DNA from: Phytohabitans houttuyneae
Lineage (GTDB): Bacteria > Actinomycetota > Actinomycetes > Mycobacteriales > Micromonosporaceae
NCBI RefSeq assembly: GCF_011764425.1
Contig: NZ_BLPF01000001.1
Location: 4,207,001 to 4,271,000, forward strand
Reading direction: 5' to 3'
Length of the DNA stretch: 64,000 nucleotides
Positions 31,058-37,003 of this stretch are shown here, one piece after another (positions within the stretch are counted from its first letter, which is position 1; every line of letters starts with the position of its first letter). A program made the position numbers and the translations under genes. The notes beneath the pieces are model-generated. The model was given only the letters and a program-made list of their open reading frames with translations, was not told the origin of the DNA and made no database searches.

Positions 31058-32590
31058 TTAGACGGGCGTCACGCCGTGGCGGCGCTTGGAGAAATGCCGT
31101 TCCTTGCCACGCGCCGCCGCGAGCCGGCGGATCAGCTCGTCGCGCAGCTCGTGCGGCTCGACCACCGCGTCGACAACCAGTTCGCTGGCAAGGCGGGCGA
31201 TGTCGATGTCGCGCTCGTACTCCGTGCGCTTGGCCGCCACGAAGGCGGCCCGCTCCTCCGGGTCGGCGATGGCCGCGATCTTGTTGGCGTAGACCGCGTT
31301 GACCGCCGCCTCCGCACCCATGACCGCGATCTTCGCGGTGGGCAGGGCGATCGTCGCGTCCGGCTCGAAGCCGGGGCCGGCCATCGCGTAGAGGCCTGCG
31401 CCGTACGCCTTGCGTACCACCACACAAATCTTCGGTACCGTCGCCTCCGCGACCGCCGTGATCATCTTCGCGCCGTGGCGGATGATGCCCTCTTTCTCCA
31501 CCGCGGTGCCGACCATGAAGCCGGGCACGTCGGAGAGGAAGAGCAGCGGCACGTTGAACGCGTCGCACAGCTGGATGAACCGGGTCGCCTTGTCAGCCGA
31601 GTCGACGAAGAGCACGCCGCCCTTGAACATCGAGTTGTTGGCCACGACGCCGACCGTCTCGCCGGCGAGGCGACCGAAGCCGATCGTGAGCTCCTTGGCC
31701 CACAGCGCCTGGATCTCGAAGAAGCTGCCCTCGTCAAGCAGGCCACGCGCGTACCGCCGCATGTCGAAGGCCTGCCGCTCGCTCGCCGGCACCAGCCCGG
31801 CGAGGTCTACATTGGACGGCGCTGCGGCCGGCGTGGTGGCGGGCGGTGCCTGTGTCCAGTTGTCCGGCAGGTACGACAGGTACCGCTTGATCGTGTCGAG
31901 CGCCTCGACCTCGGTCTTGCAGAGGAAGTGGCCGACGCCGGACTCGCGGGTGTGCACCGCCGCGCCACCCATCGCCTCCAGCGTGGTCTTCTCGCCGGTG
32001 ACCATCTCGACCATGCGGTCCGAGCCGAGGTACATGCTGGCGTTGCCCTCGACCATCGCCACCACGTCGCAGAACGCCGGGATGTACGCACCGCCGGCGG
32101 CGGACGGGCCGAAGAGGGCACATGCCTGCGGGATCGAGCCGGAGGCGCGCACCTGGTTCCAGAAGATCTTGCCGGCGCCGCGGCGGCCCGGGAAGAGGTC
32201 GACCTGGTCGGTGATCCGGGCGCCGGCCGAGTCGACCAGGTAGATCATCGGCACGCCTGTCGTGTACGCCCGCTCGATGATCCTGATGATCTTTTCGACC
32301 GTTCGCGCACCCCAGGAGCCGGCCTTGACCGTGGAGTCGTTGGCCATCAGGCAGACGGGGCGACCGTCCACGGTGGCCTGTCCGGTGACCACGCCGTCGG
32401 CGGGCAGCCCGTCGGCGAGCGCGTTCGCATACAGCCCGTCCTCGACAAACGATCCCTCGTCGACCAGCAGCGCGACCCGCTCGCGGGCGAAAAGCTTGCC
32501 CTTGGCCGCGTTGGCCGCGTGGTATTTTTCGGCACCACCCGCGAGGGCACGCTTGCGCAGCCGTTCGAGCGCCTCACCGTCGAGCGTCAC
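31058..32590 (-). CDS. Acyl-CoA carboxylase carboxyltransferase (beta) subunit
   Basis: A 510-residue carboxyltransferase with the two crotonase-like halves of propionyl-/methylcrotonyl-CoA carboxylase beta subunits. It transfers CO2 from biotin to acyl-CoA. Markers include MANDSTVKAGSWGARTVEKI, YLVDSAGARITDQVDLFPG, GPSAAGGAYIPAF, FLSDVPGFMVGTAVE and KAYGAGLYAM. The order carboxylase-acyl-CoA dehydrogenase is typical of methylcrotonyl-CoA (leucine) type operons. The biotin carboxylase gene of the likely pair lies 3 kb upstream beyond two secreted-protein genes. Confidence 0.92.
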   Translation of the reverse strand: MTLDGEALERLRKRALAGGAEKYHAANAAKGKLFARERVALLVDEGSFVEDGLYANALADGLPADGVVTGQATVDGRPVCLMANDSTVKAGSWGARTVEKIIRIIERAYTTGVPMIYLVDSAGARITDQVDLFPGRRGAGKIFWNQVRASGSIPQACALFGPSAAGGAYIPAFCDVVAMVEGNASMYLGSDRMVEMVTGEKTTLEAMGGAAVHTRESGVGHFLCKTEVEALDTIKRYLSYLPDNWTQAPPATTPAAAPSNVDLAGLVPASERQAFDMRRYARGLLDEGSFFEIQALWAKELTIGFGRLAGETVGVVANNSMFKGGVLFVDSADKATRFIQLCDAFNVPLLFLSDVPGFMVGTAVEKEGIIRHGAKMITAVAEATVPKICVVVRKAYGAGLYAMAGPGFEPDATIALPTAKIAVMGAEAAVNAVYANKIAAIADPEERAAFVAAKRTEYERDIDIARLASELVVDAVVEPHELRDELIRRLAAARGKERHFSKRRHGVTPV

Positions 32591-32661
32591 GCCAACCCCT
32601 TCCCCTGAACGATCGTTAGGGTACCATCCCGCGCCATCGGCGGAAGGCCAGCGTATGCATG

Positions 32662-32697
32662 AAAGCAGGGCCCCGCTGGTTGCGGAGGCCCTGCTTT
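32662..32697 (-). terminator. Terminator of the chaplin-like gene
   Basis: AAAGCAGGGCC (32662-32672) pairs with GGCCCTGCTTT (32687-32697), with a smaller CCGC/GCGG stem in the loop. Confidence 0.75.
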
Positions 32698-32732
32698 TGG
32701 TTGCGTTCAGTGGATCACGAGATCCGCTGCGG

Positions 32733-34070
32733 TCAGGCCGGAACCTGGCTCAGCAGGCCCATCGGGTCCACGCCCGCGACGTTGACCTTGCTGGTCTTGA
32801 CGCCGCTGCCGAGGTCACCCGCGACCGGCAGGGAGGAGGCGTCGCCACCGGTGGGCAGGCCACCCGTGGGCAGGCCGCCGGTGGGCAGGCCACCGGCCAG
32901 CGTGCCGGCGAGGCCGCCGACCAGGGGCAGCGACTCCTTCTTGGCCGACTTCTTGTAGTACCCGTGGTCGCCGCCGCGGTCCTTCTTGTAGCCGTGGTTG
33001 CCGTTGCCGTCCTTGACGTCCACGTCCTGGGCGGCACCGTTGAAGCAGCCACCGCTGACGCCGATGCCGACGCCGAGGACCGCGCCAACGCCGTTGCCGC
33101 AGACGTTGATCGGAACCTGGACCGGGACGTAGGCCTGGTTGCCGTTCAGGATCCCGTCGTTGTCACCCGACACCTGGGCGGTGTCCTCGGTGCGGGAGGC
33201 CTTGCGGGACTCCTCGATGTCCGCGTCGTGGATGGCCCCGTTGAAGCAGGCACCGCTGATGCCCGCGCCGACGCCGAGCACGCCCACGCCGTTGCCGCAG
33301 ATGTTGATCGGAACCTGGATCGGCACGTAGATCTGGTTGCCGTTCAGGATCCCGTCGTTGTCACCGCTCCACTGGAGGGTGTCCTCCGTGCGGGACGACT
33401 CCTTGTGGTCCACGTCCTGCGCCGCACCGTTGATGCAGGCGCCGCTGATGCCCGCGCCGACGCCCAGGACGCCCACGCCGTTGCCGCAGATGTTGATCGG
33501 GATCTGGACCGGCACGTAGACCTGGTTGCCGTTCAGGATCCCGTCGTTGTCACCCGACACCTGGGCGGTGTCCTCGGTGCGCTTCGACTCCTTGTGGTCC
33601 ACGTCCTGCGCGGCACCGTTGGCGCAGATGCCGTTCAGGCCGACGCCGATACCCACGACCGCACCCACGCCATTGCCGCAGACGTTCACCGGAACCTGGA
33701 CCGGCACGTAGGCCTGGTTGCCGTTGGCGATCCCGTCGTTGCCCCAGCTGAACTGCAGCGTGTCCTCGGTCCGCTTCATGTTCTTGCGGGACGACTCGGC
33801 GCGCGCCGACTCCTCGTGGTCCACGTCCTGGGCGGCGCCGTTGACGCACGCCCCGTTGAGCCCGACGCCGACACCGATGACCGCGCCCACGCCATTGCCG
33901 CAGACGTTCACCGGGATCTGGATCGGCGCGTAGGCCTGGTTGCCGTTGGCGATGCCGTTGTTGTCGATCGACACCTGCGCGGTGTCGGCCTGGACCGCCG
34001 ACGGCGCGAACAGGAGCGCACCCGCGGCCAGCACACCGACGCTGAGCGTCTTACGAACCCAAGTCTTCAT
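32733..34070 (-). CDS. Secreted protein with five tandem chaplin-like domains
   Basis: A 445-residue exported protein. A signal peptide (about 1-28, ending VQA) is followed by five repeats of 63-74 residues. Each has a core like VPVQVPVNVCGNGVGAV and a second Cys followed by Asn-Gly (CVNG, CANG, CING, CFNG, CFNG), matching the chaplin pattern PVNVCGN...C.N, joined by charged linkers rich in DHKESxRTED. The C-terminal part is Lys/Gly/Tyr-rich, then has LPTGG three times. No hydrophobic anchor or LAxTG is seen. Chaplins form amyloid-like, surface-active films on aerial hyphae and spores; each usually has one domain, or two in long chaplins. Five in one secreted chain is unusual. It is encoded between two halves of an acyl-CoA carboxylase locus, and a strong terminator follows. 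Confidence 0.85.
   Translation of the reverse strand: MKTWVRKTLSVGVLAAGALLFAPSAVQADTAQVSIDNNGIANGNQAYAPIQIPVNVCGNGVGAVIGVGVGLNGACVNGAAQDVDHEESARAESSRKNMKRTEDTLQFSWGNDGIANGNQAYVPVQVPVNVCGNGVGAVVGIGVGLNGICANGAAQDVDHKESKRTEDTAQVSGDNDGILNGNQVYVPVQIPINICGNGVGVLGVGAGISGACINGAAQDVDHKESSRTEDTLQWSGDNDGILNGNQIYVPIQVPINICGNGVGVLGVGAGISGACFNGAIHDADIEESRKASRTEDTAQVSGDNDGILNGNQAYVPVQVPINVCGNGVGAVLGVGIGVSGGCFNGAAQDVDVKDGNGNHGYKKDRGGDHGYYKKSAKKESLPLVGGLAGTLAGGLPTGGLPTGGLPTGGDASSLPVAGDLGSGVKTSKVNVAGVDPMGLLSQVPA
33015..33986 (-). repeat. Five tandem chaplin-domain coding repeats
   Basis: Units at about 33986-33765, 33764-33573, 33572-33384, 33383-33186 and 33185-33015 (222, 192, 189, 198 and about 170 bp), well conserved at DNA level. 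Units 3 and 4 are most alike in their VLGVGAGISGAC core, which suggests duplication within the gene. Confidence 0.85.
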
Positions 34071-34401
34071 GATGAAGAATTGCCCTTCGATAATTGTCAG
34101 GAAATGGCACTGCTATTCGGTTGTGATTTGTTTGCTATTTCTTGCGAGCGACCGTACGAACACGCTCGCCGTTCGGTTTCGGGCGCGGTGGAGCCACGGC
34201 TGTTCGAACCTTGAGCCCACCTGTCGACTGCGCCCAATTCGGTGATCGGTGTACGGGAGATCCGCCGCCGGTAAAAGCGGTTCCGGGACTCTTCCGTGCG
34301 TCGCCGCCTATCCGCGCTTCCGGTGAAGACGTACCGGTGAGCTGGATGGGGCCGGGTGTGCTTCCTGCCCGGTCATCGCATGACCGGCACAGTCCACCCA
34401 G
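34071..34401. other. Intergenic region upstream of the chaplin-like gene, 331 bp
   Basis: Should hold the promoter of the minus-strand chaplin-like gene. The first 80 bp is AT-rich for this genome (around TTTGTTTGCTATTTCTTGCG on the plus strand, 34127-34146). AAGGGCAA on the coding strand, about 10 bases before the ATG, is a weak ribosome binding site. No other gene is supported. Confidence 0.5.
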
Positions 34402-35526
34402 TTAGTCAGGTGAGACGGTCGGGGCCTCGGCCACATGCCGCAGGACCGCGACGTCGGTCGTGACCGGCAGCCGGTGGAACGCCACCGTGCTCTGCACGAC
34501 CGAGGAGGGAAGGACAGCGAACGCGCCGCCCTCCGCGTGGGATCCGGGCCCACCGGCCGGGATCCCGGCACCCGCCCCGAGGTACGCCCGAAGGGGCGCG
34601 GGGTAGTGCCGATCGGGCAGGTTACCGCCGCCCGGGCGCTCGTCCGGCGATCCGACCGAGCGCAGCTCCGTGCCGGCATAGCGCCGGTCGCCGGAGAGAG
34701 AACCTGTGCTGACCTCGGTGTAGCCCACCGTCCGCGTGCCGAGCACGGCTGCCGGACCTGTCTGGGCCGGCCCCGCCTCGGCGGCGAGGACCGGTGTGGT
34801 CCTCGGGATCAGCTCGTACCCCCGCTGCGCCGCCGGGTCACCCCCGAACGCCGCCCGCGTGACCGAGCCCAGCGCCGCGGTGACCGGCTGCGCCGCGGTG
34901 AGCAGCACGCCGGTGACCGGACGCAGGACCCTGTCCAGCGGGGCGACCACCGGGTCGACCGCTCGGGTCAGCGGAGTGAGAAGGCCCGTCGGCCCAGCCA
35001 GCGCACCGGTTAGCCCCAGTGGCGTGGTCAGGCCGCGGACCGCACCGGTCAGAGCGCCATCGCTGGCACCCGCCCGGTCCCGCGCGTTGCTCGGCGCAGC
35101 GGCGGGCGCCTTGGCACCCGCCGGCTCGCCGGCCGCCCCGCGGGCGGAGCTGTCCCGGTCGCCGCCCGGCCGGTTGGCCGGCTGCGAGGTGACCGGGACG
35201 GAGGACGCGGCAGTGGCGCTGGGCAGCACAACCGTGCTCGCCCGCCCCACGTGTACGAGATCGGTCGCGACCAGCGCGGTGTCCAGCGTCTCCGCGATGG
35301 GCGAAAGCGCTGAGGACCCGGCAGGGCCGGCGACCAGCGAGACCACCGAAAGATCGGCGGGCGCGTCCTCGGTGGGCAGGGCGGCCTCCGCGGCGTGTGC
35401 CGAGGCAGCGGACAGGAGCCAGGCCGCTCCCGCCAGACCGCCGACGGCCAGCACGCGCAGGCCGAGGCGGACATGCGCCGGTCGCGTCGCCGTGCGCTGA
35501 GTGCGCTCGACTCCCGACCTTGTCAT
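34402..35526 (-). CDS. Secreted Ala/Pro/Thr-rich protein, unknown function
   Basis: A 374-residue protein with a signal peptide (LGLRVLAVGGLAGAAWLLSA, cleavage near AHA-AEA). A low-complexity Ala/Pro/Ser region follows, with repeated LTxPxxLTGxL and VxRPVTGVLL stretches. A more ordered C-terminal segment contains AFAVLPSSVVQSTVAFHRLP. No membrane anchor or sorting motif. ATG at 35526 is used because the signal peptide starts soon after; the frame upstream to 35700 is probably untranslated. It shares direction and neighbourhood with the chaplin-like gene, so a hyphal-surface role is possible, by inference only. Confidence 0.65.
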   Translation of the reverse strand: MTRSGVERTQRTATRPAHVRLGLRVLAVGGLAGAAWLLSAASAHAAEAALPTEDAPADLSVVSLVAGPAGSSALSPIAETLDTALVATDLVHVGRASTVVLPSATAASSVPVTSQPANRPGGDRDSSARGAAGEPAGAKAPAAAPSNARDRAGASDGALTGAVRGLTTPLGLTGALAGPTGLLTPLTRAVDPVVAPLDRVLRPVTGVLLTAAQPVTAALGSVTRAAFGGDPAAQRGYELIPRTTPVLAAEAGPAQTGPAAVLGTRTVGYTEVSTGSLSGDRRYAGTELRSVGSPDERPGGGNLPDRHYPAPLRAYLGAGAGIPAGGPGSHAEGGAFAVLPSSVVQSTVAFHRLPVTTDVAVLRHVAEAPTVSPD

Positions 35527-35662: not shown

Positions 35663-37003
35663 TTAACGCATCCGGGCGACGATGCCGGTGTCGTAGTCAC
35701 CCGAAATGAACTCGTCGTTGTCCAGCAGCTCGGCGAAGAACGGCAGGTTGCACTTCGGCCCGGCGATCTCGAATCCGGCGACGGCGGCGCGGGCCCGCTC
35801 GATGGCGGATGCCCGGTCGCCGGCGTACACGATCAGCTTGGCCATCAGCGAGTCGTAGAACGGCGTCACCGTCGTGCCGGCCGCGTAGCCGGAGTCGACG
35901 CGTACCCCTTCGCCGCTCGGCTCGTTCCACGCGGTGATCGCGCCCGGGCCGGGCAGGAAGCGCTTGGGGTCTTCGGCGTTGACCCGCAGCTCGATCGCGT
36001 GCCCGCGCGGTGCCAGCGCGTCCGGATCGAACGCCGGCGGCAGGCCGGCCGCCACGCGCAGCTGCTCCTCGACGAGGTCGAGCCCGTAGACGAGCTCGGT
36101 GACAGGGTGCTCGACCTGGAGCCGGGTATTCATCTCCAGGAAGAAGAAGTCGCCGCTGCCCGGGTCGAAGAGGCACTCGACGGTGCCGGCGTTGCGGTAA
36201 CCGACCGCCTCGCCGGCCCGCACCGCGGCGGCCAGGAGCCGCTCGCGCAGCTCCGGCGTGACCGCCGGGGACGGCGACTCCTCCAGGAGCTTCTGGTTGC
36301 GGCGCTGCACCGAGCACTCCCGCTCGCCGAGCGCCACCACGCGACCGTCGGCCAGGCCGAGGATCTGCACCTCGATGTGGCGCACACGCGGGAAGTACCG
36401 CTCGATGAGCACCGAGCCGTCGCCGAACATCCGCTCCGCGAAGCTCCGCACCTTCTGGTACTCCGTGTGCAGCGCCGCCTCGTCGACCGCCACGCCCATG
36501 CCCATGCCGCCGCCACCCGCGGCCGCCTTGACCATCACCGGGTAGCCGATCGAGGCGGCCGCCTCGACGGCTGCCTCGACCGTGGCTGCCGGGTCAGTGG
36601 TGCCGGGCGCGACCGGCACGCCCGCCGCGGCCATCAGGTTGCGGGCATTGATCTTGTCGCCCATCGCGGTGATCGCATCCGGGCCCGGACCGACCCAGAG
36701 CAGGCCGTTGGTCTCGACCGCCCGCGCGAAGTCCGCGTTTTCCGAGAGGAAGCCGTAGCCGGGGTGCACCGCCTGCGCGCCGGTCGCCTTGGCCGCGGCC
36801 AGGATCGCCTCGCCGTTGCGATAGCTCAACGCCGGGTTGGCCGGGCCGATGTTGATCGCCTCGTCGGCCTCCGCCACGAAGGGCAGGGCCGCGTCGGCCT
36901 CGGAGTGCACGGCAATCGCGCGCACGCCGAGACGCTTGGCGGTGCGGATCACCCGGCGCGCGATCTCGCCCCGGTTGGCGACGAGGAGGGACTCGATCAT
37001 CAA
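35663..37003 (-). CDS. Biotin carboxylase subunit of an acyl-CoA carboxylase
   Basis: A 446-residue ATP-grasp enzyme that carboxylates biotin. Markers: IESLLVANRGEIARRVIRTA at the start, HPGYGFLSENADFA, AAAGGGGMGM, RHIEVQILG, ECSVQRRNQKLLEE, FLEMNTRLQVEHPVTEL. It ends at ARMR without a biotinyl (BCCP) domain, so the carrier must be encoded elsewhere, whereas many actinobacterial acyl-CoA carboxylase alpha subunits carry it fused. It is coupled to the TetR gene by an ATGA overlap. The matching carboxyltransferase may be the gene at 31058-32590. Confidence 0.9.
   Translation of the reverse strand: MMIESLLVANRGEIARRVIRTAKRLGVRAIAVHSEADAALPFVAEADEAINIGPANPALSYRNGEAILAAAKATGAQAVHPGYGFLSENADFARAVETNGLLWVGPGPDAITAMGDKINARNLMAAAGVPVAPGTTDPAATVEAAVEAAASIGYPVMVKAAAGGGGMGMGVAVDEAALHTEYQKVRSFAERMFGDGSVLIERYFPRVRHIEVQILGLADGRVVALGERECSVQRRNQKLLEESPSPAVTPELRERLLAAAVRAGEAVGYRNAGTVECLFDPGSGDFFFLEMNTRLQVEHPVTELVYGLDLVEEQLRVAAGLPPAFDPDALAPRGHAIELRVNAEDPKRFLPGPGAITAWNEPSGEGVRVDSGYAAGTTVTPFYDSLMAKLIVYAGDRASAIERARAAVAGFEIAGPKCNLPFFAELLDNDEFISGDYDTGIVARMR

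Follow-up and report, generated by a model that had tools for sequence, protein, structure and literature searches.

A five-domain chaplin encoded by a single gene in Phytohabitans houttuyneae, and its multi-domain relatives

Most of what is known about chaplins stems from Streptomyces. A wider listing also exists, presumably the work of Chandra and Chater. In the accessible part of that paper, chaplin-like genes are recorded in a few other actinobacteria, and domain numbers are not given (PMC4255298). Streptomyces coelicolor chaplins have one or two domains per protein, according to the available text of a review (PMC5618241). A Streptomyces pangenome study counts proteins with the chaplin domain PF03777, without domain numbers in the part consulted (PMC9640686). 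Another paper in the same field mentions chaplins in Streptomyces in its available text (PMC13293333), and in PMC5765111 the word "chaplin" occurs in the reference list only. In a study of Actinoplanes missouriensis, two surface proteins were compared with long chaplins, and the text available concludes that both are without chaplin domains (PMC13251363). A literature search, mainly of open-access papers and of the portions of text they made available, turned up no account of a chaplin that exceeds two domains. Pfam architecture pages probably list multi-domain chaplin proteins. Phytohabitans houttuyneae is a soil bacterium and a relative of Actinoplanes. One of its genes encodes a chaplin with five domains in one chain. 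The window, which is the whole stretch of DNA that was analysed, comprises 64,000 nucleotides of the P. houttuyneae genome.

Domain layout and surface anchoring

The chaplin gene lies on the minus strand (32733..34070), as do all of its parts given below, and was defined by ORF translation and a PF03777 profile search. It has an ATG start and encodes 445 aa; from residue 29 onwards, the computed mass is 41.4 kDa. The N-terminus, MKTWVRKTLSVGVLAAGALLFAPSAVQA (aa 1-28; 33987..34070), resembles a signal peptide when judged by eye: it has a basic start, a hydrophobic stretch and an A-x-A-like end, and it is conserved among orthologues. Five chaplin domains with two Cys each are found at aa 37-82 (33825..33962), aa 111-156 (33603..33740), aa 175-219 (33414..33548), aa 238-282 (33225..33359) and aa 304-349 (33024..33161). 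They are separated by four charged linkers, at aa 83-110 (33741..33824), aa 157-174 (33549..33602), aa 220-237 (33360..33413) and aa 283-303 (33162..33224). The tail of 96 residues (aa 350-445; 32736..33023) consists of a Lys/Gly/Tyr-rich stretch, variable LPTGG repeats (three copies) and a conserved C-terminal peptide, DLGSGVKTSKVNVAGVDPMGLLSQVPA (aa 419-445; 32736..32816), which was recognised in an orthologue alignment.

The original prediction was made from the DNA letters and described one chain with five chaplin domains. This is confirmed. PF03777 (ChpA-C) matches the protein in five stretches (E 1.7e-36; 124.3 bits against a Pfam cut-off of 21), and in a whole-genome profile search each domain alone exceeds the cut-off (27.3 to 40.5 bits); a mismatch between the chaplin profile and the repeats is thus ruled out. 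Four of the five domain matches span profile positions 14-16 to 47-52 of 57, and one spans 5-57. PF03777 is the sole Pfam match up to E 1, and a hydrophobin domain was not found. Neither solved structures nor curated NCBIfam names gave a match at E up to 1. The predicted Cys pairing of the domains is also correct, with ten Cys in the protein and two in every domain, and the charged linkers, the Lys/Gly/Tyr stretch and the LPTGG copies are all present as described. The computed GRAVY of the five domains is 0.40-0.57. This falls inside the range of 0.163-0.600 given for whole short chaplins in the accessible part of PMC3079736. Chaplins of 11 Streptomyces-like genomes (family f18) score 63.6-105 bits against PF03777, with one exception at 43.2. 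Since the five domains described here score 27-40 bits, the protein belongs to a divergent chaplin branch.

A sortase-anchored long chaplin was considered and rejected because the 445-aa protein has no sorting signal. A motif scan for L[PA]xT[GA] found no copy anywhere in the ORF. LPTGG differs from the LPxTG motif and is not followed by a hydrophobic segment and basic end; the highest 19-residue mean hydropathy of the tail is 1.02, and the tail has no basic end. In a control scan, L[PA]xTG was present in all 12 two-domain ORFs of the f18 loci. It should be added that the sortase motif alone is loose, as it also matches the start of L040 and the loci L073, L079 and L105, which have no sortase-type end. 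A class E sortase gene (NF033747; 238.8 bits against 160) is located in the same window at 204-1103 on the plus strand, about 32 kb from the chaplin gene; of nine sortase matches genome-wide, it ranks first.

The absence of a sortase anchor had been predicted, and it stands. The LPTGG repeats that it named are present, but they vary among the five orthologues, whereas in aa 420-437 one position differs, in one of the five. The prediction also proposed release of the protein; the conserved C-terminal peptide could instead hold it at the surface.

Distribution and variation of the domain array

No second PF03777 match was found in the 11.3-Mb genome by the whole-genome profile search, and a profile built from 11 chaplin domains gave no further match. 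The genome, in five contigs, is 95.44% complete, so a second chaplin gene may have been missed. In five of six genus genomes, a single ORF with a length of 434-459 aa encodes five chaplin domains; the remaining genome (G001, 89% complete) gave no PF03777 match. A separate short chaplin gene was not found in any of the six with either PF03777 or the 11-domain profile. Three of these genomes, namely P. suffuscus (G005), P. maris (G002) and one filed as Micromonospora sp. CPCC 205371 (G004), are counted both here and, as L053, L054 and L055, in the survey of 32 loci below. The four orthologues are 71-92% identical to the 445-aa protein, and dN/dS is 0.31-0.47 in all ten pairs of the five (Nei-Gojobori). 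Judged by these ratios, the gene is under moderate purifying selection. The ratios and the occurrence in five of six genomes argue that the five-domain gene is more than chance.

In the family as a whole, PF03777 matches were obtained in 140 of 354 genomes, with match counts per genome that are lower bounds; 214 gave no match. Since a match is also missing from one of the six Phytohabitans genomes, the poly-chaplin is dispensable to many relatives. Among 34 distinct domain-bearing ORFs in fetched loci, 13 have five domains, 15 have four, four have three and two have one. An overlapping set of 32 named relative loci includes Actinoplanes, Paractinoplanes, Amorphoplanes, Couchioplanes, Catenuloplanes, Nucisporomicrobium and Longispora. 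Here, five domains in one ORF are present in 27 loci, four in two (L078 and L083, the latter with an extra single-domain ORF) and three in three (L073, L077 and L080). PF03777 also matches all 19 members of alignment A2. The named loci were picked by the patterns MKTWVRKT and [TL]QFSW[GD]N[DN], which matched 44 stretches, 32 of them confirmed relatives. The N-terminus common to these loci is thus a selection effect; the search of 354 genomes is independent of it. Of 34 proteins (the 32 loci and two g4 proteins described below), 31 agree with a strict pattern for the N-terminus and 21 with one for the C-terminus. No single end motif therefore covers the family.

Beyond the family, PF03777 matches were found in 54 of 397 genomes of an order-wide sample, among the candidates listed, and in 15 of 396 genomes of a phylum sample, P. 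houttuyneae included. Members of other families have six to ten domains in one ORF together with a C-terminal LPxTG or LAxTG motif, a hydrophobic stretch and a basic end. By custom profile, L095 (719 aa) and L100 (672 aa) have ten chaplin domains and L111, L146 and L147 have six each, all with a sortase-type end, although several of these domains are weak profile matches. The 11 f18 genomes have at least 113 PF03777 domain matches, one or two per ORF and never three among the matches listed, in a tally made by eye. The custom profile gave 23 one-domain and 12 two-domain ORFs (35 in total) in the f18 loci. Its threshold was 0.05 for order and f18 loci and 0.01 elsewhere, and the reported counts are unchanged at 0.01. 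Outside the Streptomyces-like group, therefore, multi-domain chaplins are frequent, whether or not they carry a sortase signal. The original prediction took one domain or two as the norm, which holds for the Streptomyces-like genomes examined here but not for the wider chaplin family. The rarity that it implied is wrong, since arrays of at least three domains are common in this family and present in others. The search for homologues and domain counts that it proposed gave five domains in five of six genus genomes and in 27 of 32 named relatives.

Domain orthology was judged from best matches. Among 24 other five-domain relatives, a domain and its best match share their array position in 1925 of 2760 comparisons; within the Phytohabitans type, the figure is 54 of 100. 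Between the two groups this falls to 275 of 1200, near the chance expectation of 20%. Arrays have therefore either been evened out within each lineage or been built separately. Borders of domains and linkers in these comparisons, and in those of Cys and linkers below, were set by the custom profile.

Cysteines are gained and lost in pairs. Two Cys are present in 150 of 255 distinct domain sequences, none in 105 and a single one in no case; the sequences were pooled from two locus sets and are related, so they are not 255 independent events. In the P. maris protein, domains 1 and 2 have neither Cys. The pair is always gained or lost together, which agrees with an intradomain disulphide. Loss of the pair need not abolish function, because Streptomyces short chaplins form fibrils in vitro without Cys, as stated in the accessible part of PMC3079736. 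Variation in domain number and Cys pattern would also suit a drifting low-complexity repeat protein without any chaplin role, as would the absence of a Pfam chaplin match from the locus in two g4 genomes. However, the dN/dS values of 0.31-0.47, the five domains in 27 of the 32 named relatives and the strict pairing of Cys across the 255 domains argue against drift, which is considered highly improbable.

The linkers bear on a further claim, that the chain is a precursor cut at these charged segments. Secreted proteases would cut after Arg and yield five single-domain chaplins, and one gene would supply a whole pool of short chaplins. The motif R[T/A/V]E is found in all 20 inter-domain linkers of the five Phytohabitans-type proteins, which favours such processing, as does the lack of a detected short chaplin gene in the six genus genomes. 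In the 24 other five-domain relatives, however, the motif occurs in only 9 of 96 linkers; Lys or Arg is present in 76, and 20 have neither. Because of these 20, a basic cutting site is unlikely to be shared by the whole family, and it is simpler to assume that the chain acts intact. Multi-domain chaplins of the sortase type also exist elsewhere, and cutting of their linkers would presumably free all but the last piece. Processing into single domains is thus unlikely. The predicted cutting is weakly supported: the Phytohabitans-type linkers agree with it and most of those of other relatives do not. From the motif distribution, cutting after Arg could be a local feature as opposed to a family one.

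The carboxylase locus and the secreted neighbour

The chaplin gene is located between a biotin carboxylase subunit gene (35663..37003, minus strand), which forms the upstream border of the conserved locus, and a carboxyltransferase subunit gene (31058..32590, minus strand), which forms the downstream border. The same two genes enclose it in all 32 named loci. Beyond the carboxylase pair there is an acyl-CoA dehydrogenase gene, and a TetR-type regulator is present in 31 loci; it is not found in L083, whose stretch ends near that side. These metabolic genes are probably mere flanks. Between the biotin carboxylase and chaplin genes lies a gene for a secreted-looking protein (34402..35526, minus strand; ORF open from 35700, ATG at 35526), which has no Pfam match up to E 1. 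A second copy was not found in this genome. A relative of this neighbour is beside the chaplin gene in 28 of 32 named loci by tblastn, with many matches covering only 43-160 residues; it was not detected in L062, L079, L080 and L083. The count rests on tblastn since a C-terminal pattern for the neighbour was too strict and fits four of 32. The last ~65 residues of the neighbour (34402-35526, minus strand) are the part that is matched in many relatives. The middle of the neighbour thus seems variable, and its plan of fixed ends is much like that of the chaplin.

Six genomes without a PF03777 match were compared at this locus. In G001, the neighbour was not detected either, and 126 bp separate the two carboxylase genes as far as these were matched. 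In three g24 genomes without a PF03777 match, neither the neighbour nor the chaplin was found at the locus; 1 to 3.4 kb of other sequence is present there, including an HMGL-like gene in L131 (by Pfam) and L130 (by eye). The cases are few, but the shared presence and absence of the chaplin and the secreted neighbour in these comparisons is suggestive. Two genomes of g4, a genus which includes Nucisporomicrobium flavum and Couchioplanes caeruleus, also lack a PF03777 match and have an HMGL-like gene at the locus (L133 by Pfam, L134 by eye). Beyond that gene, each encodes a protein (L133:5342-6523, plus strand; L134:1915-3006, minus strand) with an MKKTWVRK N-terminus and a similar C-terminal end, for which Pfam gave no match up to E 1. 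Recognisable chaplin domains give way to repeats, for example HQGFTG or AVQAVQ. The custom chaplin profile found a trace in L133 (E 0.004) and none in L134 up to E 1; for the secreted neighbour, a partial match was obtained in L133 and none in L134. Because these proteins keep both ends without a Pfam chaplin match, chaplin domains can be lost while the ends are kept.

Upstream of the chaplin gene, the element CAAYYGAATA (34114..34123, minus strand) was recognised by its conservation among loci. Here it lies 53 nt before the ATG; 19 of 32 named loci have it at a distance of 53-64 nt from the start, compared with 0.005 per 32 in shuffles that keep composition. It may be part of the chaplin-gene promoter, although the relatedness of the species lowers the weight of this count. 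A scan of 32550-34500 for sigma-70-type promoters found none, and the two terminator matches in the same interval are no more than chance (shuffle mean 1.5). The coding sequence opens with 30 nt (34041-34070, minus strand) that are near-identical as DNA, third positions included, in this gene and ten loci of Phytohabitans type, Actinoplanes type or related types.

Proposed function and comparison with known systems

The protein is probably, if not with high confidence, a secreted poly-chaplin which acts intact as a multivalent, self-assembling surface coat. In favour are the five matches above the cut-off, the lack of a further chaplin match in the genome, conservation in the genus and among the named relatives, the paired Cys, the domain hydrophobicity, the dN/dS values and the relatives' linkers without basic residues. 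Against it weigh the low per-domain scores, the R[T/A/V]E motif of all 20 Phytohabitans-type linkers, the many relatives without a PF03777 match and the g4 proteins that keep their ends without Pfam chaplin domains. The N-terminus would serve as a signal peptide and export the chain. Each domain, with its own disulphide, would then assemble in a chaplin-like manner to form a surface-active layer rich in beta structure, and five joined domains would make each chain a ready-made multivalent building block. With its domains joined, one gene would fulfil a task that in Streptomyces is divided between anchored long chaplins and several short ones. Until assembly, the acidic linkers may hold the domains away from one another and in solution. 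The basic Tyr/Lys stretch, together with the conserved peptide at the C-terminus, may tether the chain to the wall or to some partner, possibly its secreted neighbour. Hyphae, spores or spore vessels could be where the coat acts, or it could serve in attachment.

Attachment could also be the main role. The protein would then serve mainly as an adhesin or in a matrix, for attachment to surfaces, for biofilm or for the sporangium, and not as a surfactant of aerial growth. Some chaplins do serve in mycelium attachment, according to the available part of PMC4255298. In the accessible text on A. missouriensis, the formation or strength of the sporangium involves the sortase-anchored CwpB and SspA, and the suppression of exploratory growth involves CwpA and CwpB, both without chaplin domains (PMC13251363). 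However, the domains belong to a family that is surface-active in Streptomyces, and a predominantly adhesive role is considered rather doubtful.

The preferred reading, an intact multivalent coat, can be extended to a wider proposal, which is put forward tentatively. Micromonosporaceae and relatives may have a separate coat design, in which uncut poly-chaplins of three to ten linked domains serve as multivalent amyloid-like blocks. In Phytohabitans, one such gene with a conserved secreted neighbour would replace the whole set of short and long chaplins. A C-terminal peptide of non-sortase type would keep the chain at the surface, and the array between the fixed ends would be free to change or be replaced. 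The original interpretation is, as a whole, partly supported. The five-domain form is not unique to P. houttuyneae but common to many relatives, and from the comparisons made here the proposed function is plausible. As the genome has a single detected chaplin gene with five domains, whether one poly-chaplin suffices for a water-repellent coat can be tested genetically. The natural array series, with three to ten domains and a sortase signal in some members but not in others, offers ready material for the study of functional amyloids.

Among the closest described proteins are the short chaplins ChpD-H of S. coelicolor, which share the PF03777 domain, the hydrophobic stretch, the Cys pair (except ChpE) and the lack of a sortase signal. 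Streptomyces-like chaplins of L135, L137, L138, L151 and L156 also have ends rich in Gly, Tyr, Lys and His, as does the Phytohabitans tail. Short chaplins, however, have one domain and several genes per genome, whereas in Phytohabitans five domains and one gene were found. The long chaplins ChpA-C likewise have more than one chaplin domain per chain; according to the available review text they have two domains and a C-terminal sortase signal (PMC5618241), in contrast to five and no signal. L095, L100, L111, L146 and L147 resemble the Phytohabitans protein in having many domains per ORF (six to ten), but the sortase-type end is theirs alone. CwpA and CwpB of A. missouriensis are hydrophobic surface proteins from the same bacterial family; unlike the Phytohabitans chaplin, they are without chaplin domains and are anchored by the sortase SrtE, according to the accessible text (PMC13251363). 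The fungal polyhydrophobins CFTH1 and CPPH1 of Claviceps have three or five interface-active domains per chain, joined by linkers, and their cleavage into single units is raised as an open question in the text available (PMC12375992). In plan they come nearest to the poly-chaplin; their domain is unrelated, and the likeness is one of plan only. Since the plans are parallel, the poly-chaplin bears on the question of why interface proteins have repeatedly been joined in tandem.
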